The notes beneath the pieces are model-generated. The model did not search any database and had not been told where the DNA came from. It saw only the letters and a program-made list of their open reading frames with translations. This document shows positions 3,919-46,259 of a stretch of 64,000 bases of DNA, one piece after another. Both the position numbers and the translations under genes were made by a program. Source of the DNA: an uncultured Planctomycetaceae bacterium (GTDB taxonomy: Bacteria > Planctomycetota > Planctomycetia > Planctomycetales > Planctomycetaceae); NCBI GenBank assembly GCA_903858815.1, contig CAIOKE010000274.1, positions 1-64,000 on the forward strand. Direction: 5' to 3'. Numbering within the stretch: position 1 is the stretch's first letter; every line of letters begins with the position of its first letter.

Positions 3919-4559
3919 GGTTCAGCGAAAACTTATGTGCGCTCCAGCAGATTGCCGTGTGAAGGGGTGGGCGAAAAACGCACTGGATGCTTCTTCCGTG
4001 CGAGGAAAAACATAATTGCTCAGACGGAATTGACACCATCCGTCAGCTGACACTAACGGCTCGCCCTGGGGAGGTGGGGGGCTTGAACACGGTGGACGAC
4101 ACGGGCTGAAGCCCATGTTACGACCACGGAGCACCAGCTGGGTGACGATGCCGAGGGGCACTTTTGCTGAGATGTGATCAGCCCACGGAATGGCTGAGTG
4201 ATGGGCAAATGTGCGTTGCGTGGTGGCTTTGTGTGGGCACAAGGCGGCCGAGCAGGAATGACGCGAGGGACAAAAGTCGTAGTCTGGGCTTTAGCCTGGG
4301 CACGAACTTCTCGTCACCGTTGAAATCTCCAGTGTTTTTTGAGGGAAGGGGCCGAGCAGGAATGCTCGGGCTACGGTTGTGGGCGACCAGCGCCGGGTGA
4401 ACACGGACTGTAGCCTTCGGCTCGGCAGGAGCCTCGCCCTCCCGAGGGGCGATGAGAGTGTTTCGGCTCGGCGGGAGCCTCGCCCTCCCGCGGGGCGCTG
4501 GGGGGTGTTTCGGCTTGGCGGGAGCCTCGCCCTCCCGCGGGGCGCGATGAGAGTTTTTT
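3919..4559. repeat. Repeat-rich intergenic DNA, including three palindromic units
   Basis: No gene is seen here. The left part holds small palindromes of the gggctgaagccc type (near 4108) and a related gggctttagcc copy (near 4290). Positions 4419-4555 carry three tandem copies of the ggctcggcaggagcctcgcc unit, the last two with a cccgcgggg variant core. Open frames in this stretch come from the repeat composition and are not genes. Confidence 0.75.
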
Positions 4560-9378: not shown

Positions 9379-9518
9379 GCAGAAAACTCCGGTGGGGCAG
9401 GCAGGTGTCCGTGTGGGTGCCTGCCTGTGGGCTCTGCAGTTTATCAGGGATTTTTGCGAAGTGGAATCGACCGGCTGGGGCGGTGATCAGTTGTCAGTTT
9501 TCAGTTTTCAGAGCCGGC

Positions 9519-9885
9519 GAAGTTGCCCCTGGGAGGGCGAGGCTCCTGCCGAGCCGAAGGTCGGTGGATTTGATTCAGCGAGCTGGTGCTCGGAGGTCCC
9601 AGGCGGGCGTGGACGGGCATGGGCGTAAGCCGTCGGGTGTTGTTTGGGTGTTGTTTTTTTGCCGCGGAATGGCGCGGAAAAACGATGGGTGGCTGGAGGG
9701 GATTTGAACCACGGAAGGACACGGAAGACACGGAAATATCCGGGTTGGCGCGGGGGGATTTGAACCACGAATGACACGAATGACACGAATGACGCGAATG
9801 GGTGTGATGTTGGTGGGTGTTGAGGCGAGCAGTAGTCATTGGGGCGAAGTTGCCCCTGGGAGGGCGAGGCTCCTGCCGAGCCGCG
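9519..9885 (-). repeat. Composite interspersed repeat (palindrome plus ccacggaaggacacgg-type array)
   Basis: The stretch starts and ends with the palindromic unit in inverted orientation (9519-9560 and 9843-9883). Between them are a gtgttg-rich minisatellite, a ttgccgcggaa block and short arrays of ttgaaccacgaatgacacgaatg and ccacggaaggacacgg. The same order recurs twice at 19.88-20.55 kb. Open frames across it translate into low-complexity peptides and are not genes. The rest of the gap from 9379 to 10038 holds nothing else apart from the terminator below. Confidence 0.8.
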
Positions 9886-11436: not shown

Positions 11437-14400
11437 CTATTGCCGGGGCGATGGTGCTGGGCTGTTGAGGGATTCCCAGACGGGTTTCTGCAGGCAGTAG
11501 GCGGGTTTGAAGGCGCGGTCGCGGAAGGGTTCCTGGTACAGGACAGTCGCTGCGGAGGAGAATGGCGGGACGAGCCACATCCATTTGCCGTTGGGTTCTC
11601 GTCCGGCGGCCTGTTCATTGCGACAGAATTCCAGGAATTCGTGGCAGACGCTGTGATGATCGGCAATTTTAACTCCGGCGCGATCGAAGGAGTGCAGTAC
11701 GGCTTCGTGGAGCATGAGCATGGATCGATCGCGCCACAGGGTGCGTTCACTGGAGATATCGAGTCCCATGCGTTCGGCAAGTTCGGGCAGCAGGTTGTAT
11801 CGATTGGTATCGGTGAGATTGCGGGCTGCGATTTCCGTATTCAGGTACCAGCCATTGAATGGGATCAAGCGATACATCATGCCTCCGGCGTCAAGTGCCA
11901 TATCAGCGACGGCAGGGATGGCGTACCATTTCAGGCCCCGTTCAAGGAGCCAGTTCTGCTGTGGGTGTGACAGGCGGACTTCCGGTCGGCAGTCAGCGGG
12001 CAGTTCGAACATGCGGGGACCGTGTTCAGCGGTTTGAATGACCAGCGGCAGGAGGTCGAAGTCCGTACCAGCGGGTTCCCATCCAAGTCGCATGATGTGT
12101 TCGGTGACGGCATTCTGGGCGGGATCGCCGATCTGTTTTCCGGAGCGCAGGCGATAGCCGGCGTAGCGCAGCAGCTGAGGGTTCCAGAGTCGTGGTCCGG
12201 GGACAGTTCGGGTGCCGGGTGAAAAGACGGAGATTGCGGGCCTGAGATCTCCGCCGTTCCATGCGAATCGCAGGTGTTCGAACAGGGCATCAGCGATCAG
12301 TGTGGGTTCTGTGAGCTGTCGGCAATCGCGGAGGTGCAGACCTTTCCAGTAGAGTCGTCCAACGCAGCGTTCGGCGTTTCGCCACGCGATGCGGGCAGCG
12401 AATCCCAGTTCTTCGGGAGTCATATTCCAGACTCCGGTTTCAGCCAGTTCGTGCTGTGCCAGCTGAATGCGTTCGTGGAGCTGGCATCGTCCGGGGCACT
12501 CGGCTTCGAATTCACGGAGGAACTGTTCGGCCTGTTCGGCAGCGGGGAGTTTTGATTTGAGTGGAATGGGCGGGCCAGCGGGGTAATCGGGTTTGAAATC
12601 TTTTTTCCGCCAGCCTCCGGGCATCAGCTGCAGTCCGGCACCGCGTTGGGGGTGATCGAAGCTGTCTGCTCGGAGTGTCATTCCGGGGATCCCTGCGAGT
12701 GTCGACAGGACCATGCGGTTAAAATCACCGGGGCCGCAGACAACAACTTCTGCTGCCCCGAGGGCGGCCGCACATTCGGTGACATGCTGGCTGTCGAGTC
12801 TGCCGCGGTCAGCAGTGCAGTGCTGTGTCAGAGTGATCTTTCCGGCGTCCGCGACTTTGAGCAGATCGTCAAGGTAGGCGGCGGAATCTGCGGAGCGGTA
12901 GCTGTACAGCACATGCATACGGCGGCTGGAGGCCAGTTTGCGGATGGCGGCGATGGCCGGGGTCACTCCGATGCCAGCTACGATATACAGCAGCGGTCGG
13001 GGGTCATCCGCTGCCGGACAGACATCACCCTGCGGTGGCAGAACTCTGACGAGAGTGCCTTCTGCCACGTTGTTCAGCCAGTTGGAGAAAAACCCATTCT
13101 GCTCCAGTTTGACTCCCAGTTCAAAGGCTGTGGGGGAGGCGTCCGTGAGGGTGTATGGACGTCCGATCCACGCGCCGTCGACGAGTGCTTCAACGCGAAC
13201 GAACTGGCCGGCTTGCGCCTGAGGCAAAGGAGTTTCATCAACGGTTTCAAGGCGGACTTTAATGGAGCCCGTGGCCAGTGGGGCGCGCTGAATACGACAG
13301 AGTGAGACCTCCATTTGTCCAAGGAAGACGGGCAGTCTGCCGCGGCAGCCTCCGCAGATTCCGCCGGCACCGGTCAGTCTGGTGAGATCTTCAACACACG
13401 TCGCAGACCGTGCGGCCGAACGCAGCATAGAAGCGGTGGCATTTGTGCAGGCGCAGATGATTTCAGCACCGGCTGGTGTGCGGGAGGCTGCATTTTCCAG
13501 CAGCAGGTCTCCGGTTGATTCGAAGGCGCGCTGCTGCCAGTCAGCAAGGCTGGCGTTTCGCAGAATCAGGGACATGGCGCTGGGCAGTTGATCCCATTCA
13601 CGCAGTACGGTGATGCCGACGACAGCTCCGCTTTTTGTCAGTATCAGCAGTCGACTTCCATCGGGGGCTGTGAGCGTGATGGTGTCGGTCAGGGGTTCTT
13701 CACGAGTTGCCACTGTTGCGGGCAGGTGCGGGAAATAACGAACGCGAATGCGGCTTCCAGTGGACTGTGTGTAATCGCTGACGATGCACGGTTGTTGATC
13801 AATCTGTGCCATGTACCGATAAACGGTACCCAGCTGCGGCAGTTGATGTGCGGATGTGAGGGCGGTGAGAATTGTACCCAGTCGGCCGCCCTGCTGCTGA
13901 CAGGAACGCAGGACTGCTGCACTGATACTGAGTACTTCGACGGCGGTGACTGCAGTGGCGTATTCACGGCGCGGGGATTCGGCAAGCACATCCGCCTGCC
14001 CGAACAACAGGCCAGCTCGAATGGTTTCCGAGGGCAGAGTGCTGTCAGCGCGAGTCAGCGCGACTTCACCAGCCAGCAGGAACCACGCATGCTCGGCCGG
14101 CTGACCAGCCTGATACAATGTTGTACCGGCCGCGAACTGGCGGACAGCGGCCTGGGGAGCATTCTGCAGTTCCGTCTGCTGTGCGAGTTCTGCTGCCAGA
14201 ACCCCCAGCTTGTTCAGTGCATATCGGACGGCGCGGGTGGACAGTCGATCGGCAGCAGCTTTGTCATTGCGGAGCAGTTTCCGGAAATTCTCGCCCCGCA
14301 AAACTGCCAGCGTGGTGGTATCGAGGGCGATCACTGATGCGCTGCGAAACTGGCGGCCCTCCAGCAGCGATTGCGCTCCGATCAATTCACCGGGGCGATC

Positions 14401-14670
14401 CACTGTCTCCATCAGACGCAGCTGCTGTTCGGCATTCTGTGTGTAAAACCCGCAGCGACCGCTGAGCAGCACGTAGACGTCGTTGGCGGTTTCCCATTCG
14501 GCCATCAGGATTTCGCCGACTGCCAGCGAACGTGCCGAAGCCCTGTCGCAGAATGCGGTCAGCGTTTCGGCGGCGGTTCCGGAAAAGAGCGCGGTCAGCG
14601 ACTGCTGCAGAATTCGGAGTTGTTCGGTCGAGAGAGTTTCGTCACTTTGATTGATGCTGGAGTCACTCAT
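11437..14670 (-). CDS. nos: Multidomain nitric oxide synthase: 2 x cyclic-nucleotide-binding, BFD-type [2Fe-2S], FNR reductase, NOS oxygenase
   Basis: 1077 residues. Domains in order: two Crp-like cyclic-nucleotide-binding folds (about 20-150 and 170-290); a linker resembling the small NirB/rubredoxin-reductase C domain (about 330-375, GAVVGITVL); a BFD-like [2Fe-2S] domain with Cys406, Cys408, Cys439 and Cys442; an FNR-type FAD/NAD reductase (RPYT 504-507, GIGVTP 566-571, CGPGDF 645-650); and a NOS oxygenase domain (about 715-1075). The haem thiolate motif AWRNAERCVGR places the axial ligand at Cys769. NGGDLRPAISVF, GLKWYAIPAV and WYLNTEI match animal NOS segments, and the last contains the arginine-binding Glu. 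Predicted reaction: L-arginine to citrulline and NO, with electrons from NAD(P)H delivered in cis. It lies 42 bases downstream of an esterase gene on the same strand. No zinc Cys motif or calmodulin site is seen. No strong ribosome-binding site precedes the ATG. Confidence 0.93.
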   Translation of the reverse strand: MSDSSINQSDETLSTEQLRILQQSLTALFSGTAAETLTAFCDRASARSLAVGEILMAEWETANDVYVLLSGRCGFYTQNAEQQLRLMETVDRPGELIGAQSLLEGRQFRSASVIALDTTTLAVLRGENFRKLLRNDKAAADRLSTRAVRYALNKLGVLAAELAQQTELQNAPQAAVRQFAAGTTLYQAGQPAEHAWFLLAGEVALTRADSTLPSETIRAGLLFGQADVLAESPRREYATAVTAVEVLSISAAVLRSCQQQGGRLGTILTALTSAHQLPQLGTVYRYMAQIDQQPCIVSDYTQSTGSRIRVRYFPHLPATVATREEPLTDTITLTAPDGSRLLILTKSGAVVGITVLREWDQLPSAMSLILRNASLADWQQRAFESTGDLLLENAASRTPAGAEIICACTNATASMLRSAARSATCVEDLTRLTGAGGICGGCRGRLPVFLGQMEVSLCRIQRAPLATGSIKVRLETVDETPLPQAQAGQFVRVEALVDGAWIGRPYTLTDASPTAFELGVKLEQNGFFSNWLNNVAEGTLVRVLPPQGDVCPAADDPRPLLYIVAGIGVTPAIAAIRKLASSRRMHVLYSYRSADSAAYLDDLLKVADAGKITLTQHCTADRGRLDSQHVTECAAALGAAEVVVCGPGDFNRMVLSTLAGIPGMTLRADSFDHPQRGAGLQLMPGGWRKKDFKPDYPAGPPIPLKSKLPAAEQAEQFLREFEAECPGRCQLHERIQLAQHELAETGVWNMTPEELGFAARIAWRNAERCVGRLYWKGLHLRDCRQLTEPTLIADALFEHLRFAWNGGDLRPAISVFSPGTRTVPGPRLWNPQLLRYAGYRLRSGKQIGDPAQNAVTEHIMRLGWEPAGTDFDLLPLVIQTAEHGPRMFELPADCRPEVRLSHPQQNWLLERGLKWYAIPAVADMALDAGGMMYRLIPFNGWYLNTEIAARNLTDTNRYNLLPELAERMGLDISSERTLWRDRSMLMLHEAVLHSFDRAGVKIADHHSVCHEFLEFCRNEQAAGREPNGKWMWLVPPFSSAATVLYQEPFRDRAFKPAYCLQKPVWESLNSPAPSPRQ

Positions 14671-14712: not shown

Positions 14713-15582
14713 CTACTGCAGGACACTGTCGATGAATGCCTGGTATTCCACGGTCGCCGGGTCATCCGGCTTACCGAGGTCGTCATTGAGCTGGCTGTGG
14801 TTGGTGTCTGCTTTTCCGAAGGCCTTTGCGGAGATGTCCGAGGCCTGCAGGACTTCCGCGAGGCGTCGGGCCTGGGCGCCGGTATCGGGATTACCTGTGA
14901 AATACAGCAGCAGGAACGGAGGAATGTGCTTGTCTTTGGCGACATGGGTGACGGCCGAGAAGCGAACGTGCTGATCCGGATCATTGCCGAATTTCTGGCG
15001 ATGCCCGAATGTGAACATTTTTCCGCCATACAGCATCTGCCGATGTTCAGCGGTGGCTATGATTTTGGGAATATCATAGGTGTCACCATCGACCGGAATG
15101 CAGCCCCGCAATGACGTGAACGGGACGTCATACTTTGCCAGCCATGCAGAATCTGTGCAGAGGATGGCGGCCAGCTGGGCTCCGGCAGAGTGTCCGCCGA
15201 CAATGATACGATTGGGATCACCGCCGTTGGTGGCAATGTTGCGTCTCACCCAACCGAGAGCAGCTGCAACGTCATCGATCAGTTGCTCCATCGGGACGTG
15301 GGGCAACAGGCGGTAGTTGGTGGAGACGAACACGTGGCCTTTGGCGGTGGCGACTGTGGGTTTCAGGCCTACATCGCTTTTGTCTCCGGCCTGCCAGCCT
15401 CCCCCGTGGATCCAGAAAATCACTGGCCGCAGCTGATCGGACTTCTGTGCGGGCAGGTAGATGTCGAGCACATGGCGTTCGTGCCCGCCGTCCCGGTAAG
15501 GCAGATTGCTGAGTTTCTGCTGGGCGGGCGATTGGCTGAAGGGGGTGCAGCACAACAGCAGGAACAGAAAGGGGAACCGCAT
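14713..15582 (-). CDS. Secreted alpha/beta hydrolase (esterase/lipase, BD-FAE type)
   Basis: 289 residues with an N-terminal signal peptide (hydrophobic run ending near SPAQ). The oxyanion-hole motif HGGGW and nucleophile motif GGHSAGA mark the hormone-sensitive-lipase/carboxylesterase branch. The catalytic His is probably in DTNHSQ near residue 260. It likely hydrolyses small ester substrates outside the cytoplasm. The NOS gene follows 42 bases downstream on the same strand, so the two may be co-transcribed, though no functional link is obvious. Confidence 0.88.
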   Translation of the reverse strand: MRFPFLFLLLCCTPFSQSPAQQKLSNLPYRDGGHERHVLDIYLPAQKSDQLRPVIFWIHGGGWQAGDKSDVGLKPTVATAKGHVFVSTNYRLLPHVPMEQLIDDVAAALGWVRRNIATNGGDPNRIIVGGHSAGAQLAAILCTDSAWLAKYDVPFTSLRGCIPVDGDTYDIPKIIATAEHRQMLYGGKMFTFGHRQKFGNDPDQHVRFSAVTHVAKDKHIPPFLLLYFTGNPDTGAQARRLAEVLQASDISAKAFGKADTNHSQLNDDLGKPDDPATVEYQAFIDSVLQ

Positions 15583-18740: not shown

Positions 18741-19619
18741 TCAGGGGGTACCGGACTGGCAGACGGCGTTTCCGCAACCGCAGGCATGTCCTGTTGTCTG
18801 GTCAGCGAACGGGTACGGGAACATGGGGACATTGTTGCCTCGGCGTCTGACAATCAGTTCGCCGGCTGGCAGTGAGTCGGCAAGCAGGTCGTAGTAAGCG
18901 ACGAGGTTCTGAAAGTCGGTCCATGTTTTGGCGATGCCATCTGCGGTGCCGACAAACTGGATATCAGCGGCGGTCAGCGCTACGCCTTTGACAACGATAA
19001 ACCCAAGAATGTCTTCATCGTGGGCTCCACCACCATTGCCCTGTTGTGACTGGACAACGATGAAAGTGTCGCCATTGACGACCTCCAGCGAGCGCAGTGC
19101 AGCAGTATGTCCGCGGACCTGCAGTGTGTCTCCCTGTTGACGACTGAAGTCATTGATCTGAACGTATCCGATGAACTCGGTCCAGTGATCATGGACATTC
19201 TGGTTTTCGCCGGCGACGCCACCCCAGTTGATGGTGCCGTCATCATTGACATGTCGGGCGACGATGGCCGGTTTTCCCGAGATATAGGTCTTGATGATGA
19301 ACTTATCTGCGCCCTGACCGCCGATCATGGTTTTCAGGTGGTCGTCGTAAGTCTGTCCGGCAAAGTATGTGCGAGTCGAGGCCTGCACAGGATCATTGGG
19401 ATCATCGGCTCGCAGCGTTTCACCGTTTGGACCTGTGGCTCCTGTACCAGCGGCTTCGTAATCCTGAGCGATCTGTGGTTCGCCCGAGATTGCGTGGGCA
19501 TAGAGTGTGTCAGCGCCGCGAGTACCACGAATCAATTTGCCTGCCGGTGGCCCCTGAACAGCGACCGCACCGGCTGCCATGCTGAGCATCAATGTGCCGA
19601 CCATGCATTTCTTCAACAT
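18741..19619 (-). CDS. Secreted protein with two RTX-like nonapeptide half-repeats
   Basis: 292 residues from the ATG at 19619, which has AGGAG about 10 bases upstream and begins a lipid-free signal peptide (MLKKCMVGTLMLSMAAG). IRGTRGADTLY and IGGQGADKFII resemble single hemolysin-type calcium-binding repeats, at about 30 and 90. The remainder is beta-rich with no recognised domain. The C-terminus ends in a short Cys-containing segment (HACGCGNAVC) that could bind metal or form disulfides. Probably periplasmic or extracellular; function is unknown. Confidence 0.75.
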   Translation of the reverse strand: MLKKCMVGTLMLSMAAGAVAVQGPPAGKLIRGTRGADTLYAHAISGEPQIAQDYEAAGTGATGPNGETLRADDPNDPVQASTRTYFAGQTYDDHLKTMIGGQGADKFIIKTYISGKPAIVARHVNDDGTINWGGVAGENQNVHDHWTEFIGYVQINDFSRQQGDTLQVRGHTAALRSLEVVNGDTFIVVQSQQGNGGGAHDEDILGFIVVKGVALTAADIQFVGTADGIAKTWTDFQNLVAYYDLLADSLPAGELIVRRRGNNVPMFPYPFADQTTGHACGCGNAVCQSGTP

Positions 19620-19832
19620 CGTTTGTGACTCCTGTGTATTCCAGTCTGCAGGCGACAGGCGGGGGAACTGTCTGCGCGTCCGGCGATCCCACACAGAAGG
19701 CCGATGTCGCGGAATCCCGCCTGCATCAGATTGCAGCTTTGCAATCTGGTTTTGTGATGAGACCGAGGGAAGTCTCTGCATGGTAAAGGCCGAAAACTCG
19801 GGAGAACCCGCCATGCGAATTGCTTTCGGTTG

Positions 19833-19874
19833 TCATTGGTCATTGGTCATTGGTCATTGGTCATTGGTCATTGG
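19833..19874 (+). repeat. Heptamer tandem repeat (tcattgg x6)
   Basis: Six perfect head-to-tail copies of tcattgg directly abut the composite repeat that begins at 19875. This is a slipped-strand-prone microsatellite in non-coding DNA. Confidence 0.9.
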
Positions 19875-20546
19875 GGCGGAGTTGGCCCTTGGAGGGCGAG
19901 GCTCCTGCCGAGCCGCAGGGTTGTGCTGCGGTACGTGTGTTTGGTTTTGTGGGGGATGAGAGGTGGGACACCGAGCAGGTGCGCGGCGGTCGCAGTTGGG
20001 CATGGGCGAGCCGTTGGTGTCAGCCATCGGGTGTTGGTTGGGTGTTGGTTGGGTGTTTTTTTTGCCGCGGAAGGGCGCGGAAGGGCGCGGAAAAAAAGAC
20101 GGGTGGCTGGGGGGATTTGAACCACGAATGACACGAAAGGGTGTGAAGTTTGGTTGTGTTGAGGCGGGCAGTTGTCAGTAGTCAGTTGGCCCTTGGAGGG
20201 CGAGGCTTCTGCCGAGCCGCAGGGTTGTGCTGCGGTACGTGTGTTTGGTTTTGTGGGGGATGAGAGGTGGGACACCGAGCAGGTGCGCGGTGGTCGCAGG
20301 TGGGCATGGGCGAGCCGTTGGCGTCAGCCATCGGGTGTTGGTTGGGTGTTGGTTTGGTGTTTTTTTTTGCCGCGGAAGGGCGCGGAAGGGCGCGGAAAAA
20401 AAACGGGTGGCTGGGGGGATTTGAACCACGGAAGGACACGGAAGGACACGGAAACATGCAGGGTGGCTGGTGGGTTTTTGAACCACGAATGACACGAATG
20501 GGTGTGATGTTTGGGTGTGTTGAAGCGGGCAGTAGTCAGTGGTCAG
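19875..20546 (-). repeat. Two near-identical composite repeat units
   Basis: Unit 1 spans about 19882-20185 and unit 2 about 20186-20546. Each starts with the inverted palindromic element, continues with a shared ~100 bp block (ttgtgctgcggtacgtgtgt...), a ttgggtgttgg minisatellite, a ttgccgcggaagggcgcgg array and ttgaaccacgaatgacacgaa. Unit 2 has an extra ccacggaaggacacgg block. The units differ by few bases, which points to a recent duplication. There are no genes here. Confidence 0.85.
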
Positions 20547-21770: not shown

Positions 21771-23213
21771 TCAGTGAGCCGGAGGCAGACTGTTCTGGAA
21801 GGCACGATTACGGAACAGGAAGTCAATGATGTTGCCTTCATGTGGCTGCAGCCAGTTCAAGGCACAGGTGGGGATTGGTCCGACGTTCAGACGGTCGATG
21901 TTGCGAGCATCAACGAGTTCAGCGATCCACTTTTCGTTCTCTGTGATCGCAGTCCCAATCAGAGTCTGGCCGATTTTCCCCAGCATCTTGTCCTGCGGAC
22001 ACTGGACAACCGAGACAAACGGAAACATGTATTCGGTGTTAGCCATCGAGTTATCGCAGTCGGTGACATGCAGTACGGTAGGACGCAGGTAATCGCAGCG
22101 TTCCTGCTTCACCAACCGATCGCCGCCACGGTATTTGGCGGTGACATCGGTCACGACAGATGGCTTCAGTCCGGCATCAATCTGATTACTGGCTGCTTCA
22201 GCAACTCCAGCAGTGGTGAAGGCCGCAATCGCGGCATTTGGATCGGTTGTTGGCAGTGGTACAATCGGACCGATGCGCTGCGCGATGGCATCGGCGATCT
22301 CTGCCGTGTGGCGTGAGGCCCAGATTCCGGAACAGTTGATGCAGCCACGGCCGCCATTCATGATCACACTTTTGACCATGATGTCAAGATAGTCTTCCCA
22401 GCGGTCAACAAGGTCATCACCCAGCAGAATTTTGCTGAAGCCAGGACCGTGAGCCTGCACCTTCGGGTTACCGTGATATTTATCAACCGTCGCCTGACCT
22501 CCGAAGATCATTGAGCGATTGCAGGTTTCCAGGACTTTGTTGCCGACATCGTGAGGCCCTGGGTAGAGGCAGAACGCTTCACGCGGTACACCGGCCGCTG
22601 CAAAAGCCTCGTACATGCGATAGGGCGTCCAGGGCTCGGAAGAACCCGGTTTCAGAACAAGTCCGATCTGCAGAGGAATGGCGGGCAGCCACAAGGTGTG
22701 CACACCGGGTGAATTGGACGGCAGCACCAGTCCCAGCGTGGGAGTGGTTGCCTGGAAGCTGACCATGACGTTCCGGGATTCCATTCCGTAGCCGCGCGAC
22801 AGAATGTCAAGAGGCAGCCCGCGAGTCAGTGCGTCCAGCATGTCGCCCATGTGCTTCAGCACAAAGGCGTTTTTATTCATATTCGCCCGGCACATATTCA
22901 GCGGCAGGCCAGTGGTGGCCGACTGGATGGAACAGAACTGTTCGGGAGTCTGTGTTCCGTTGCCCAGCGGCAGTTCCGCAGTGAGATACAACTGTGCGGC
23001 GACTTTGCATTTTTCGACCAGCTCTGTGCAGGAGAACTGCTTCAGTGCTTCGCGAGCTTTGGCGGACTTCCGGGAATCCATCTGCACGAGGCCAGCATTG
23101 GCCTGATGCATGCGAGCCATGACCTCACCGGTTTCAAAGTGTACAACTTCTGCTTTTTCGAGCGATTCGTACGGCTTACCCCAGCGGATGACCGGAATTT
23201 CCACAACAGACAT
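21771..23213 (-). CDS. Aldehyde dehydrogenase superfamily protein (acyl reductase-like)
   Basis: 480 residues from the ATG at 23213; the open frame extends further upstream but that part has no family character. It has ALDH-fold features: a nucleotide-binding segment (LGLVLPSNSPGVHTLW), KPGSSEPWTP and a catalytic loop GGRGCINCSG with Cys291 and Cys294. Such enzymes interconvert aldehydes and acids or acyl thioesters. The gene lies 86 bases downstream of an acyl-activating enzyme, so reduction of an activated acyl group to an aldehyde (a LuxC-type role) is plausible. A biosynthetic dehydrogenase role is the alternative. Confidence 0.8.
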   Translation of the reverse strand: MSVVEIPVIRWGKPYESLEKAEVVHFETGEVMARMHQANAGLVQMDSRKSAKAREALKQFSCTELVEKCKVAAQLYLTAELPLGNGTQTPEQFCSIQSATTGLPLNMCRANMNKNAFVLKHMGDMLDALTRGLPLDILSRGYGMESRNVMVSFQATTPTLGLVLPSNSPGVHTLWLPAIPLQIGLVLKPGSSEPWTPYRMYEAFAAAGVPREAFCLYPGPHDVGNKVLETCNRSMIFGGQATVDKYHGNPKVQAHGPGFSKILLGDDLVDRWEDYLDIMVKSVIMNGGRGCINCSGIWASRHTAEIADAIAQRIGPIVPLPTTDPNAAIAAFTTAGVAEAASNQIDAGLKPSVVTDVTAKYRGGDRLVKQERCDYLRPTVLHVTDCDNSMANTEYMFPFVSVVQCPQDKMLGKIGQTLIGTAITENEKWIAELVDARNIDRLNVGPIPTCALNWLQPHEGNIIDFLFRNRAFQNSLPPAH

Positions 23214-23299
23214 GACTTCGGCCCCAGACAAAAATACGACACGGAATTTCAGGACCGCCGGATGCGATGGCACCCGGCGGTGCGACCGGTTGCAGTGGC

Positions 23300-24394
<1,095 letters not shown>

Positions 24395-24575
24395 GCTGCA
24401 CCTTTTTACTGCGGTGATATGTGATTAGGCAGAGATTCCGGAGGGATTGCAGGCGACTGCAGAAGCAGCCTCTGAAGAGCATGGTAGATTCGTCCGTCCG
24501 GAATGCAAATGCAGAGGCGTGGGCGTGGGAAAAGCAGGAAAGATTCCCTGTTGAGGGCGGGTCAGCGGAAAATCG

Positions 24576-25631
24576 TCAGAGGCCATCGATGCGGCGAAAC
24601 TGATAATGTGAAACGAACCATTCCGCGCCGCCAGCGTATCCAAACAGCTCGGCACAGGCCATAAAGAACATCCGCCAGCGGGACTCCCAGCGTCTCCAGT
24701 CTGTGCCGTAGGCGGATTTCAGGATTCTGCGGACCTCCGACTGCTGTTCATCCATCCGCTGCAGCCATGCATTGCTGGTTTTTTCGTAGTGGCGGCCATC
24801 CCACAGCCACTGGGCTGACAGCTGCAGCCGCTGCTGACAGTGCAGCAGCAGGTTCTGTGAGGGCATCATACCACCGGAAAAGAAGTAGCGAGCCATCCAG
24901 TCCGAATCATCGTGGACTTCGAAGGGATAGGTGTATCGGTGGTGGCAGAAGATATGGACAAACAGCAGTCCGCCGGGCTTGAGCCATGAATGGATGTGAC
25001 TGAACAGCAGCTGATGATTCCGCACATGCTCAAACATTTCCACTGAAACAACTCGGTCAAACGATTGTGTCGTGCGGAAGTCGTTGATGTCGGAGGTGAT
25101 GATTTCAAGATTGGTAAGTCCGCGGCGGGCGGCTTCAGACTGGATGTATTGTCTCTGGGAGTGTGAGTTGGATACGGCGGTAATGCGGGCGAGCGGATAG
25201 TGTTCGGCCATCCACAGGCTGAGTGATCCCCAGCCGCAGCCGAGTTCCAGGATCTGCTGTCCATCGGCCAGCTGAGCGTGTTCGCAGGTCAGGCGGAGCG
25301 CATTCCGTTCGGCCTGTTCGAGGCCGGTGGTGCCGTCGTCCCACCAGCAGCAGCTGTATTTGCGGTGGGCACCCAGCACCAGCGCGAAGAATTCGGCTGG
25401 AACTTCGTAATGCTGCTCATTGGCTTTTTCGGGCAGCACCGCGATGGGGCCACTCCACGACTGCTCGGCAAACCTGCGAAACTGTTCCATCTGCTGGTCA
25501 GGAGTCAGTGCGTGGAGTTCTGCGAGGCGTGCTCTGAGCAGCCGGCGGATACCGGTGCGGACCAGTGTATCGGGCAGACGTCCGGCTTCCGCGAGGCCGA
25601 TCAGAGGAGTCATCAGGTGCAGCAGTGCCAT
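24576..25631 (-). CDS. SAM-dependent methyltransferase of the cyclopropane synthase/coclaurine N-methyltransferase family
   Basis: 351 residues from the ATG at 25631. Motif I is ILELGCGWGSLSLW (about 127-140). The sequence around HYEVPAEFF, YSCCWW and FEHVRNHQLL, and the C-terminal AWLQRMDEQ and FGYAGGAEWF segments, resemble plant coclaurine N-methyltransferases and bacterial fatty-acyl-phospholipid synthase-like proteins. It is the second such gene in the cluster and clearly diverged from the neighbour at 25838. The product may methylate a lipid chain or an amine headgroup. No Shine-Dalgarno is evident. Confidence 0.85.
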   Translation of the reverse strand: MALLHLMTPLIGLAEAGRLPDTLVRTGIRRLLRARLAELHALTPDQQMEQFRRFAEQSWSGPIAVLPEKANEQHYEVPAEFFALVLGAHRKYSCCWWDDGTTGLEQAERNALRLTCEHAQLADGQQILELGCGWGSLSLWMAEHYPLARITAVSNSHSQRQYIQSEAARRGLTNLEIITSDINDFRTTQSFDRVVSVEMFEHVRNHQLLFSHIHSWLKPGGLLFVHIFCHHRYTYPFEVHDDSDWMARYFFSGGMMPSQNLLLHCQQRLQLSAQWLWDGRHYEKTSNAWLQRMDEQQSEVRRILKSAYGTDWRRWESRWRMFFMACAELFGYAGGAEWFVSHYQFRRIDGL

Positions 25632-25837
25632 AGGAGAGCATCCGGGAAAACAGGGACGAACAGAAGTGACGCCGCAGACAAAAAGGCAGCCAAGGCATTC
25701 GTGCTCGGCCCAATCATGGAAAAACACGGTTTTTTTGAGTGATGTGAAGTTGCAGCCCCGGTATCAGCCCGGGCGTCCACTTCTGCCTCTGCTCCCGGCA
25801 TCAGATTCATGCCGGCGAACAGTCAGTCAGTGCGAGA

Positions 25838-27181
25838 TCAGCAGGGACTGCGAAGTGCCGAGGCAGGCTTGGCCCACAGAACCTGAACCAACCCGATGGC
25901 TCGTTCGAGGAAGGCGGCTTCGCAGTAACACAGGTAATAGCGCCACATGCGGATGAAGCGTTCGGAAAAGCCCAGTCCGCGGACGGCATCGAGCTGTTCG
26001 TGGAACCGTTCGTTCCAGAGTCGCAGTGTGCGAGCGTAGTGCAGCCCGAAGTCATCCATAGAAATCAACCGCAGTGAAGTTTCTTCGACGATATGCCGCT
26101 GCATCATGGAGATCGAGGGCAGGAAGCCACCCGGGAAAATGTACTTCTGGATGAAGTCCACCGAGTCTTCGTAGCCGGCGTAACGCTGTTCGGGCAGGGT
26201 GATGGCCTGAATCATCATTGCTCCGTCGTCCTTCAGCAGTTCGCCACATTTGCGGAAGTAGCCGGGCAGATATCTGCGACCGACCGCTTCAATCATCTCG
26301 ATGGACACCAGTTTGTCATACTGGCCGTCCAGATCACGATAATCGCGTTTCAGCACAGTGACACGGTCGCCCAGGCCGGCCTGCTGCACTCGTTCCGAGG
26401 TCATGCGGAACTGTTCGTCAGAGATCGTGGTGGTGGTGATGCGACAGCCGTAGCGGCTGGCTGCGTGAACCGCAAATGCTCCCCAGCCACTGCCAATCTC
26501 AATCACTTCTTCATCAGGCTGCAGCTTGAGCATCCGGCAGACACGATCAATCTTCTCGATGGAGCCTTCCTCAAGTGACGACTGGTCACTGGGAAAGATG
26601 GCTGAGGAATACAGCATGGTGGGGTCGAGGAAAAGTCGGAAGAAATCGTTGCCGAGGTCATAGTGTTCCTGAATATTGCGACGACTTCCGGCTCGGGAAT
26701 TTCGATTGCGGAAGTGCTGCCAGCGATGCCGCAGCTGTGACAGGCGAGTCAGTGGTGACGACACTTTTGACAGGACATGCTCGTTCTTCAGCAGCACGCG
26801 AAACAGATCCGTGAGTTCTTCAGACACCCACTCGCCCTCAAGGTACGATTCGGCAGCACCCAGCAGGCCGTCTGACAGCAGTCGACGGAAGAATCGCGGG
26901 GAATTCAGACGGACATGTCCGGCGAGTGCACACTGTGTGAGATTCCCGAAGCGTTCACTGGTCTGCTCATGTTCAAGCACCACCTGGCCGTATTGCAGGC
27001 CGCTGAGGCTGCTGCGGAGCATGCGACGCGAAAAGCGTTCCATCAGGCATAACCAGCGTCGTTCAGCAGTGCTGGTTGACGAGGCAACCGGCTGGGGCAC
27101 TGCGGGCTGCTGCTGTTCAGTCAGCGCTGTGGGAGCACGATCACAGGCAAATGGTGACAAGCGGGTTGATCGGGATGACAT
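25838..27181 (-). CDS. cfa: Cyclopropane-fatty-acyl-phospholipid synthase
   Basis: 447 residues from the ATG at 27181, with AGGAG about 7 bases upstream. Features: HYDLGNDFFRLFLD, SAM motif EIGSGWGAFAVHAA, EMIEAVG and the QKYIFPGG loop, all typical of Cfa. It transfers a methylene from SAM to unsaturated acyl chains of membrane phospholipids. It is placed after DUF1365 and an FAD amine oxidase, the usual neighbours of CFA-family enzymes in proteobacteria and Planctomycetota. The N-terminal 80 residues are Ser/Pro/Gln-rich and may be disordered. Confidence 0.92.
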   Translation of the reverse strand: MSSRSTRLSPFACDRAPTALTEQQQPAVPQPVASSTSTAERRWLCLMERFSRRMLRSSLSGLQYGQVVLEHEQTSERFGNLTQCALAGHVRLNSPRFFRRLLSDGLLGAAESYLEGEWVSEELTDLFRVLLKNEHVLSKVSSPLTRLSQLRHRWQHFRNRNSRAGSRRNIQEHYDLGNDFFRLFLDPTMLYSSAIFPSDQSSLEEGSIEKIDRVCRMLKLQPDEEVIEIGSGWGAFAVHAASRYGCRITTTTISDEQFRMTSERVQQAGLGDRVTVLKRDYRDLDGQYDKLVSIEMIEAVGRRYLPGYFRKCGELLKDDGAMMIQAITLPEQRYAGYEDSVDFIQKYIFPGGFLPSISMMQRHIVEETSLRLISMDDFGLHYARTLRLWNERFHEQLDAVRGLGFSERFIRMWRYYLCYCEAAFLERAIGLVQVLWAKPASALRSPC

Positions 27182-27273
27182 GCAGACTCCTGTCAATTCC
27201 AGGGTACACAAAGAATTCGGACGAACTGATGGACTGTTTGACTCAATGTGACTGAACTGGCTGCGGGGACTGT

Positions 27274-28104
27274 TCAGGCCGCTGTACCGGAACCAGCCAT
27301 GGTCGGCTGACGTCCAGGATGCGGCACAAAGCGGACACCCTTCCACCACAATCGCAGGGCATGCCAGTAAATGCCCTGCAGAATTCGAAATGTCATCAGC
27401 GGGTATCTCAGCAGCACACTGCGCAGCGATGCGGGTGTGATTTCCCGGCGTGTCATCTGCAGAGTGGCCTCAAAGACGGGCTGCTGCGAGCCGCGAGAAG
27501 CCGGGGTTGCCCTCGATTCCCGCGAATGAGTCTCGATGTGAATACTGAGCTGCTGGCCCGGTTCCCGAATCTGCCAGCGATAGCTCATCGCCATCGGCAT
27601 GAACGGTGAAACATGGAAGTCCTTTTCGTTCCAGAGTTCCTGCAGGCGACTGTTGGTGGTGACAGCAGGATCGGGGGTGGCAGCGATGGGCAGCACGTAG
27701 CAGTGTCGCTCGCCCCACGGCGTGTTGTGCACCTCAGCCAGAACCCAATGCAGCTGTGAACCGCTGACGTCATAACAGAAGAAGTAGCTCACTGGATTGA
27801 TCACGTAACCGAAACAGCGGAGGTTGGTCAGCAGTCGGATCGGCCCGGCCGGAACGCTGCCGGTCTGTCGCTGCACCTCTTCGCGGACACAGTCTGCCAG
27901 CGGACGCCGGGGGTCGCCGAGGTGGTCACTGCGGCGAAACTGCATGACGGCCATCCGGCTGGCCGACCACAACCACGATCCGCGAAATACCTGATCCAGT
28001 TCCTCCAGATCCAGCAGAACCTGAAATATGCGATAACGAAATCCGTGTTCCACCGGGGTGAACCGTCGGTGGCGAACCTCTCCGATATACAGGCAGCTGT
28101 GCAT
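27274..28104 (-). CDS. DUF1365 family protein
   Basis: 276 residues. The DUF1365 signature is clear: [16 protein letters not shown] near the start, [15 protein letters not shown] in the middle and KDFHVSPF later. The ATG overlaps the stop of the upstream FAD oxidoreductase by one base (tgatg). The family is strongly linked to CFA synthases and FAD amine oxidases and presumably acts on the same lipid substrate. Its chemistry is not established. Confidence 0.92.
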
Positions 28105-29426
28105 CAGCGGGCCCCCATGCCGACAAGGCTGTCACTGCCTGCAGTCTGCGGTGCTGACTGCAGGCGCAGCGGAGCGGTGGGAGTGAGGCCGGCAATGCCG
28201 AATTCACGACAGACGGCCAGTGCACTGCGGACACCGTCTTCATGGAAGCCATTTCCCCACCACGCGCCGCAGAAGGATGTGCGCTGCGTTCGGATCAGCG
28301 AACGATGCTCCTGCTGCAGGGCCGCGCGCTGTGTCGTGAAGATCGGGTGGGAAAAGCGGTGTCGCGAGAGAATGCGGTCGGGGCGGATGCTGTCGGTGTC
28401 GTTGAGAGTCACGCAGAAGGTATGCGGCGAACGAATATGCTGCAGGATGTTCATATTGTAGGTCACCGTGGCGTGGGCATCCGGCCCCTGTCCAACGCGG
28501 TAGTTCCACGCGGACCATGCACGACGACTGCGAGGCAGAATGGTTTCGTCGGTGTGCAGCACCACGTCATTCATGCTGTACGGGAAGCCGCTGAGAATGC
28601 GGGTTTCGCTTTCCGTGGGCTGCTCAAGTAAAGCCAGTGCCTGATCACTGTGACAGGCCAGTACAACTTCATCGAAGACGGCTTCGCTGGTGTCGGTCAT
28701 GACAGTGACGCCTGTCGCCGTGCGGCGAATACGGCGTACCGCAGTTCCTGACACGATGCGGTCAGCAAACGGCTCGATCAGGCGGCTGACATAGCTGCGT
28801 GATCCGCCCGGAATCGTATACCACTGCGGACGATTGGTCAGGCTGAGCAATCCGTGGTTGCGATAGAACTCGAGAATAAACTGGATCGGGAAATCAGCGA
28901 AGGTGCCCATCGGGCAGGACCAGATCGCAGCCCCCATGGGCAACAGATAGTGGTCACGGAATCCACGACCAAATCCACGACGCTGCAGGTACTGCCCGAC
29001 CGTCTCAGTGGAACCAACAACGTCGGCGTCTGCGGTACCCACGGAATTGAATCTGAGGATGTCCAGCACCATGCGCAGAAAGGAGGGACTGAGCAGGTTG
29101 GTGCGCTGAGCGAACAGCCCATTCAGGCTGGTGCCACTGTATTCCATACCCGTGCGATCGCAACGGACGGCGAAGCTCATCTCCGTCGCGATTCCTGGAA
29201 CCTGCAGAAGCCCCAGCAGCTCCATGAACAGCGGATAGGTGCGGTCGTTGTAAACGATGAACCCGACGTCGATGGCGTAGTTTTGGCCGGCGAGCTGGAA
29301 TTCGACTGTGTGGCTGTGTCCGCCCGGGCGTCGCTCGGCCTCAAAGACAGTGACCTCGTGCTGTTGTGAGAGCATCCATGCAGCAGAAAGCCCGGAAATT
29401 CCGCCTCCGATCACGGCAATTCTCAT
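28104..29426 (-). CDS. FAD-dependent amine oxidase-like oxidoreductase of the CFA cluster
   Basis: 440 residues. The N-terminal dinucleotide motif is [13 protein letters not shown] followed by [36 protein letters not shown] and the C-terminal [14 protein letters not shown] are typical of the DUF1365-linked branch. It probably oxidises or desaturates a lipid intermediate. It is the first gene of the operon that runs through DUF1365 and the CFA genes. Comparable three-gene sets in alphaproteobacteria respond to singlet oxygen; regulation here is not visible. Confidence 0.92.
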
Positions 29427-45052: not shown

Positions 45053-45245
45053 GCGGGGCCCTGTTGTGGCTGACGGTGTCTGTCTGCGATCAGTTTCCGG
45101 GCTCAGTTTTTTTTCTCCAGAACCACCATTTTTCTGAATTCCTCGAATCCCGAACAACCCCTGCGCTGTTTTTCCGAGCATGGTGAATAGAGACTGCAGT
45201 GTCTGCGGTTTGCAGTCGTTCGGGAATTCATGCAGGAGCACAGCG

Positions 45246-46259
45246 ATGGTGGTCAGTCAACTGAGCTTGTGTGTGGCGTTGATGCTGTCGACACACTCGG
45301 GACTTGCGGCGACTCTGACGACGTCTGGAATTCAGGACAGCGGCCCTCGTGATGGTGTCCCTCGCGACGGTGGCCCTCGTGACGGTGGCCCTCGTGACAG
45401 TGGCCCTCGTGACGGTGGCCCTCGTGACGGTGGCCCTCGCGATGGTGGTCCGCGTGACGGCAGCCCCCGCGACGGTGGCCCTCGTGATGGTGTCCCTCGT
45501 GATGGTGTCCCTCGTGATGGTGTCCCTCGTGATGGTGTCCCTCGTGATGGTGTCCCTCGTGATGGTGGCCCCCGCGACGGTGGCCCGCGCGACGGTGGCC
45601 CCCGTGATGGTGGCCCGCGTGACGGCGGCCCGCGTGACAGTGGCCCGCGTGACGGCGGCCCGCGTGACGGTGGCCCTCGTGATGGTGGCCCGCTTGACAG
45701 CGGCCCGCGTGACAGTGGCCCGCGTGACGGTGTCCCTCGCGACGGTGGCCCTCGTGACAGTGGCCCGCATGACGGTGGCCCCCGCGGTGGTGGTCCGCGG
45801 GATACCGGCCCTCGTAATGCTGGTCCTCGCGACCATGTTCCGCCTACCGGCGGTCCTCGTAATTCTGGTCCGCGTGATAATGATTCGCGGTCGGGTTTTG
45901 GTCGTGGTCCTGAGTTTGGTGGCGGACCTTTTGGTTGGGGTGGCGGTCCGATGCCATTCCGAGGTGGTCCTTGGGGATCTGGTGGTCGGAACATTGGTGG
46001 TCGGGGATTTATGGGGCCACCACCTTTTGCGGGAGGTCCGTGGCGCGGTGGGTGGAGTGCTGGCGGTGGTGGTCCGCGAGAATTTCAACGGCCTGCATTT
46101 GGCCGAGGATTTGTGGGTGGTGGATCGTGGGGTGGTGAGCGTCCCGGTTTTGGTTCGAGTGATCGTTCTGGTGGTCGAACGGTACGTCCGATTCCACCTC
46201 GGCATTCTTTCAGCGGTGCTCGTGGGGGCGTGATTCTCCGTCCTGTTCCTCCGAGGTGA
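45246..46259 (+). CDS. Secreted Gly/Pro/Arg/Asp pentapeptide-repeat protein
   Basis: 337 residues from the ATG at 45246, with AGGAG upstream and a signal peptide (LSLCVALMLSTHSGLA). About 36 tandem pentapeptides of consensus [GV]PRD[GS] (nt 45342-45887) follow, each encoded by a 15 bp repeat (ggccctcgtgacggt-like). The last about 120 residues are Gly-rich with scattered Phe, Trp and Arg (GGPFGWGGGP). It should be disordered, with paired + and - charges. No known domain or family was recognised. The repeat opens several other reading frames on both strands, but only this one has an SD site and signal peptide. Confidence 0.8.
   Translation: MVVSQLSLCVALMLSTHSGLAATLTTSGIQDSGPRDGVPRDGGPRDGGPRDSGPRDGGPRDGGPRDGGPRDGSPRDGGPRDGVPRDGVPRDGVPRDGVPRDGVPRDGGPRDGGPRDGGPRDGGPRDGGPRDSGPRDGGPRDGGPRDGGPLDSGPRDSGPRDGVPRDGGPRDSGPHDGGPRGGGPRDTGPRNAGPRDHVPPTGGPRNSGPRDNDSRSGFGRGPEFGGGPFGWGGGPMPFRGGPWGSGGRNIGGRGFMGPPPFAGGPWRGGWSAGGGGPREFQRPAFGRGFVGGGSWGGERPGFGSSDRSGGRTVRPIPPRHSFSGARGGVILRPVPPR

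Follow-up and report, generated by a model that had tools for sequence, protein, structure and literature searches.

The window, i.e. the whole stretch of 64,000 nt of planctomycete DNA that was analysed, carries on its minus strand an ORF of 1077 aa that begins with ATG and contains zero internal stops (Table 1). Two stretches of the encoded protein match Pfam cNMP_binding (PF00027; E 4.8e-28, 97.4 bits versus a cut-off of 27.5) and are followed by Fer2_BFD at residues 404-445 (E 9.3e-8), FAD_binding_6 at residues 473-549 (E 2.3e-5) and NO_synthase (PF02898) at residues 711-1065 (E 1.3e-129, 432.7 bits versus a curated cut-off of 22.7). The reductase residues 473-658 are also covered by the NCBIfam flavohaemoprotein model, at a score below its cut-off (E 8.4e-18; 64.5 bits versus 432). 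That is, the predicted module order is CNB-CNB-(NirB-type Rubredoxin_C-like-BFD)-FNR-NOS in one chain, CNB standing for cyclic-nucleotide-binding domain and NOS for nitric oxide synthase. The ORF and the Pfam matches bear out the first-pass annotation, which had described one chain with two Crp-like domains, BFD, FNR and NOS and had placed the Fe-S cysteines 406/408/439/442 and the haem Cys769 at exactly the right positions; it had left residues ~280-400 blank, of which ~317-395 correspond to the predicted NirB-type domain, whereas ~280-316 gave no domain assignment. A database search for the same domain order, which had been proposed along with it, found this order in other genomes, and the layout is therefore not due to chance.

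Table 1. Features of the fused NOS gene and of its upstream neighbour (window coordinates)
Feature	Position	Strand	Basis and remarks
Whole protein, CNB-CNB-NirB-type domain (predicted)-BFD-FNR-NOS oxygenase	11437..14670	-	ORF and Pfam
CNB1, residues ~20-150	14221..14613	-	Pfam cNMP_binding 47-136; AF2; cassette A99 (Glu lost), R109, S110
CNB2, residues ~170-275	13846..14163	-	Second cNMP_binding stretch; phmmer to CRP-type proteins; cassette Q225 (Glu lost), R234
Predicted NirB-type C-terminal (Rubredoxin_C-like) domain, residues ~317-395	13486..13722	-	Profile comparisons
BFD-type [2Fe-2S] domain, Cys 406/408/439/442	13336..13461	-	Fer2_BFD
FNR-type FAD/NAD(P)H reductase, residues ~454-674	12649..13311	-	FAD_binding_6; fold match to 4eh1
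NOS oxygenase domain, residues 711-1065, haem Cys769, substrate Glu946	11476..12540	-	PF02898; 2flq_A
Alpha/beta hydrolase (BD-FAE/esterase)	14713..15582	-	Ends 42 bp upstream of the NOS gene

The hydrolase gene and the NOS gene are possibly co-transcribed. The hydrolase also neighbours the NOS gene at L013 (83.7% identity) and at L054, which belongs to the L014 genome (76.5%), but tblastn (E<=1e-5) did not find it at any of the seven further loci included in the comparison. In the genome of L016, a CNB-CNB-NTE/patatin phospholipase gene (L051 10815-13127, plus strand) is divergent from the NOS gene and constitutes a second tandem-CNB protein adjoining it. Elsewhere in the window, the gene at 18741-19814 (minus strand) has no Pfam match and shares 91% identity, along the greater part of its sequence, with a gene near the L054 NOS. 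Aldehyde dehydrogenase-family, AMP-binding, two cyclopropane synthetase-type, DUF1365 and FAD oxidoreductase genes lie in a row at 21771-29426 (minus strand), an arrangement suggestive of a cluster for fatty acid modification; by eye, the first two genes resemble LuxC/LuxE. A short dispersed repeat with the core GGAGGGCGAGGCTCCTGCCGAGCCG occurs in both orientations, apparently between genes (243-372, 4416-4544, 9503-9884 and 19862-20220), and a tandem array of 15-bp repeats at 45237-45986 encodes GPRDG-type pentapeptides.

Oxygenase, reductase and linker

The best PDB sequence match of the NOS part is 2flq_A, a Nitric Oxide Synthase (E 1.8e-91). C769, W941-Y942, E946 and R950 are all present in the window protein; we take C769 to be the haem thiolate, E946 the substrate Glu, and W941-Y942 and R950 conserved NOS residues. 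Cys769 is found in all nine family rows holding that site, as are Cys 406/408/439/442, Tyr506, Gly566 and Gly568, and Trp941, Tyr942, Glu946 and Arg950 are found in all eight rows extending that far, in agreement with the earlier claim that the haem thiolate and the substrate Glu are conserved. Pro571 of the NAD motif is replaced by Thr in two of nine rows. By VIA-align, the FNR part superposes best on the flavohaemoglobin-type reductase 4eh1 (Z 25.2, rmsd 2.2, 216 residues), followed by phthalate dioxygenase reductase (Z 23.9) and CYP116B46 (Z 23.4). The NAD portion of the reductase is thus recognised by fold, and the [2Fe-2S] and FAD modules are assigned by Pfam; together with Fer2_BFD and FAD_binding_6, the fold match upholds the proposal of an in-cis Fe-S/FNR reductase.

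Residues ~317-395 are predicted to be a NirB-type C-terminal domain, sited just before BFD as in NirB. When the seven-linker profile was compared with 392 planctomycete genomes, it found two fused NOS as well as the NirB-like proteins L073 (9.9e-6), L074 (5.6e-5) and L075 (1.8e-3); we take two weaker places (0.0033 and 0.0071) for chance. In L073 and L075, Pfam recognises Pyr_redox_2, Rubredoxin_C and Fer2_BFD, in that sequence, and all three NirB-like proteins have an apparent C-terminal membrane part, judged by eye. With hhalign, the linker alone aligned with the NirB-type domain of L073-L075 at 96.3% (linker columns 50-127, residues ~317-394), and linker plus BFD aligned co-linearly at 99.3%. 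The NCBIfam NirB model TIGR02374 also matches L016 at residues 319-418, i.e. the linker end and BFD, below its cut-off (E 5.7e-6). Pfam returned nothing significant for eight linkers (sub-threshold SH3_Rv0428c, 0.014, and AIMA-like_N, 1.2), and PF18267 (Rubredoxin_C) did not match any of the eight scanned. Modelled alone, the linker (residues 268-402) yields a small domain of fair confidence (pLDDT 80.4, pTM 0.72), with which Foldseek gave no match at E<=0.001. VIA-align against the PDB gave a best Z of 6.1 and many flavoprotein C-terminal domains, but Pur-alpha (5.9) ties with them; because unlike folds tie at such weak Z, it is the profiles and not the fold that support the NirB assignment. 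NirB and NADH:rubredoxin-type reductases have a Rubredoxin_C-like domain followed by a BFD [2Fe-2S] domain, as here; in contrast to them, the window protein has no FAD/NAD Rossmann part and is fused to FNR and NOS.

In the AF2 model of the whole chain, CNB1 reaches a pLDDT of 57-89 (ten-residue blocks, 11-150), and the N-terminus consists of strands followed by helices, in support of the CNB fold that the first-pass annotation had expected. The model has a pTM of 0.34 and its NOS part is badly folded because the alignment was shallow, so that the domain interfaces are unreadable. The 50 Foldseek matches listed for the whole chain were all NOS (rmsd 11.8-14.1).

Occurrence, descent and selection

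A scan of genome contigs with the single protein gave six pattern matches and no relative, whereas a scan with a two-row alignment succeeded, recovering 10 relatives: L013-L018, all of which have the reductase, plus four loci from Bacillota in which the match is confined to NOS. In other genomes, the domain order is shared at 31-74% identity to the window protein. The full order is intact at seven loci, i.e. in the window, L013 and L014 (Planctomycetes), L015 and L017 (Verrucomicrobia), L016 (a MAG labelled Acidobacteria) and L048 (G495; the window's genus, 31% identity). At L050, in the phylum of G536, the contig stops within the gene, and at L005/L018 a frameshift separates the CNB frame from the remainder. 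Judged by contig number and position, L013 and L014 reappear as G487 and G497. One verrucomicrobial fused-NOS genome has, in addition, a second NOS on a long branch, for which the match is limited to the NOS part (L063; G534:C72).

Of 392 genomes sampled from the phylum, four have PF02898 (two fused, G270 without a clear reductase, and G065, where a fragment stands at the beginning of a contig). It was also found in 1 of 29 genomes from the class of G171 and in 5 of 170 from the order, all five within the 18 genomes of the window's genus; four of these five are fused, and the fifth (G489) begins where its contig does and could be truncated. Of 337 genomes in the phylum of G536, 15 were positive (two fused, one of them cut, and 13 with frames of 343-437 aa). 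The phylum of G535 yielded 3 of 347 (one fused, one below the cut-off, and one partial that is 72% identical to the NOS end of the window protein). Since the gene is rare and patchy, this suggests transfer or loss. Among plasmids, 196 records match some part of the protein and none reaches 80% of it.

The NOS tree, built from 28 rows, unites the six fused rows of group A (100/100) and, separately, L018 with L048 (100/99). A single origin of the fused type was considered and not adopted: the subgroups are drawn apart, and a common clade of all eight fused rows appears in 2% of 200 bootstrap trees, yet such a clade is not rejected (p-AU 0.199). The dN/dS ratio was 0.04-0.33 in 18 of 24 pair-by-domain comparisons (four pairs, six domains), rough figures as synonymous sites are near saturation, and the other six comparisons were saturated and gave no value. 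The ratio was 0.04-0.06 for NOS and 0.15-0.33 for CNB1 (three pairs each). These sequence comparisons point to purifying selection on the protein. Between the window protein and L013, identity is lowest in CNB1 (53%), compared with 90% in NOS.

The CNB pair and its possible ligand

In the binding cassettes of the window protein (A99/R109 in CNB1, Q225/R234 in CNB2), the Arg is present and the Glu is lost in both. Among nine CNB1 rows, the acidic position holds Glu in five, Asp in one and Ala in three, and the Arg position holds Arg in six, Met in one and Ala in two; for CNB2 the nine rows have Glu (five), Asp (two), Gln (one) and Ala (one), and the Arg is kept in all eight readable rows, the frameshifted one being excluded. 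An acidic residue and the Arg occur together in 4/9 rows for CNB1 and in 6/8 readable rows for CNB2. No complete cassette is found in the window protein (A/R, Q/R) or in L015 (E/A, A/R). L048, from a divergent subgroup in the window's genus, has Glu and Arg in both CNBs, and a Thr follows the Arg in CNB1; in PKG, a Thr after the cassette Arg is linked to cGMP preference. The top PDB matches of the L048 pair are cGMP-dependent protein kinases (E 9.4e-31), which likewise have tandem CNBs, although the output of PKG is a kinase and here it is NOS. The window pair weakly matches CRP-type regulators (best E 9.7e-6), NtcA also being matched, and PKG is absent among its 52 PDB matches.

The first-pass annotation had suggested that a cyclic nucleotide could gate NO output. 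The CNB fold and the full cassettes of L048 favour this, and the absence of Glu from both cassettes counts against it for the window protein. Judging from these residues, gating appears plausible for the subgroup with complete cassettes (L048) and less so for the window protein; it would be a good hypothesis, and a better one for the former.

As to a source of ligand, class III cyclases occur in 13 of 13 genomes examined, including four NOS-negative genus mates. Convergent with the L048 NOS gene is one for an FHA-cyclase protein (L048 5375-7201, plus strand), whose best PDB match is 2w01 (E 1.4e-12), deposited as an adenylate cyclase and presumably a guanylate cyclase; the base-selecting position is Asp in the L048 protein and Glu in 2w01. 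This cyclase is an extra paralogue of a genus-wide family. Its adjacency was rejected as proof of gating, being seen at one locus, in convergent orientation, and the family having relatives in 17 of the 18 genus genomes regardless of NOS. H-NOX was likewise rejected as a general partner (one of nine genomes).

Proposed mechanism, alternatives and significance

Probably, the protein is a bacterial NO synthase that is self-sufficient in catalysis and carries a regulatory module at its N-terminus. Electrons would pass from NAD(P)H to the FAD of the FNR part, on to the BFD [2Fe-2S] cluster and finally to the thiolate haem in the oxygenase domain, where L-arginine would be oxidised to citrulline and NO. 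The Fe-S cluster would be housed in a NirB-type-like cassette, from which the FAD/NAD Rossmann part is absent, two CNB domains occupying its position, and the CNB pair adjoining this cassette would most likely control electron delivery to the haem. The ligand would probably be a cyclic nucleotide in the L048 subgroup; in the window's subgroup the pair could hold a cyclic nucleotide in a different or weaker manner, respond to some other ligand, or have no ligand at all, in which case its role may be structural.

The loss of Glu from both window CNBs, the limited retention of acidic residue and Arg together (4/9 and 6/8 rows) and the fast change of CNB1 relative to the other domains between window and L013 could also mean that the pair is a relic, or a structural or dimerisation part binding no small ligand, with a Sorangium-type NOS controlled by expression. 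We regard this as a tentative but real possibility; the CNB2 Arg of all readable rows, dN/dS values well under 1 for both CNBs where computable and the full cassettes of L048 argue against it. Other members of the CRP/FNR family sense things other than cyclic nucleotides, and the incomplete cassettes, as well as the matches of the window CNBs to CRP-type proteins and NtcA, would fit a pair that senses e.g. redox state, haem or a 2-oxo acid, which we consider unlikely. The majority of the members stem from MAGs or fragmented genomes, and L005/L018 is frameshifted; an assembly chimera or pseudogene is nonetheless hardly credible, given an open frame with low dN/dS and an order repeated on separate contigs at seven intact loci. 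The product might, finally, serve nitration, biosynthesis or NO handling rather than signalling, for which one can cite metabolite nitration among bacterial NOS roles (PMC9311577), the nearness of the FNR part to a flavohaemoglobin-type reductase and the esterase-like upstream neighbour. This appears quite improbable, as no globin or evident biosynthetic enzyme was found among eight neighbour proteins (three without any match) and 10 window proteins scanned.

Returning to the reading as a self-sufficient NO synthase, this appears on sequence evidence to be a real, conserved enzyme whose reductase-NOS part is of the kind described for Sorangium NOS. According to excerpts of PMC3701330, scNOS of Sorangium cellulosum (Agapie et al. 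2009) has an N-terminal 2Fe2S, FAD and NAD reductase and a C-terminal NOS, and two cyanobacteria carry a similar NOS. The window protein thus shares with it a single chain with N-terminal 2Fe2S-FAD-NAD reductase and C-terminal NOS oxygenase, and the likeness noted in the first-pass annotation holds for the domain order as described there. The excerpted scNOS descriptions (PMC3701330, PMC9311577) name no CNB or NirB-type domain, and the two proteins may thus differ in these domains. SyNOS of Synechococcus PCC 7335 is also multidomain and likewise includes a reductase and one further domain, but differs in having an N-terminal globin and a diflavin reductase (excerpts of PMC6104048, PMC12922734). 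With single-domain NOS of the Bacillota type, the oxygenase is shared (43-47% identity to L019-L022), the match being confined to the NOS part of the window protein. No NOS with a CNB was found in the titles and abstract beginnings of the open-licence literature, and the parts seen of PMC9500659, PMC9311577, PMC12922734, PMC5673642, PMC6104048 and PMC9687028 name no CNB in NOS; a NOS gene is reported in a freshwater verrucomicrobial MAG, in a passage giving no domain detail (PMC5673642). The CNB pair with its NirB-type cassette may therefore be novel, i.e. a variant for which no description was found and which differs from Sorangium NOS as the latter is described.

Control of NOS by calmodulin is well known. 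A cyanobacterial NOS is controlled via a C2 domain, according to the title of PMC12922734. If the CNB pair controls NOS, this would be a new control principle, by which a single bacterial protein would link two signal systems, NO and cyclic nucleotides, and the difference between the window and L048 proteins at the cassette residues makes gating directly testable. The architecture would also illustrate a route for NOS to gain a power supply, namely from an Fe-S cassette resembling that of NirB together with an FAD/NAD module resembling that of flavohaemoglobin. It is doubtful that the NO synthase is switched directly by a cyclic nucleotide on its in-cis, tandem PKG-like CNB pair; if true, however, the mammalian order from NO to guanylate cyclase, cGMP and kinase would be reversed, leading from cyclic nucleotide to NO within one polypeptide.
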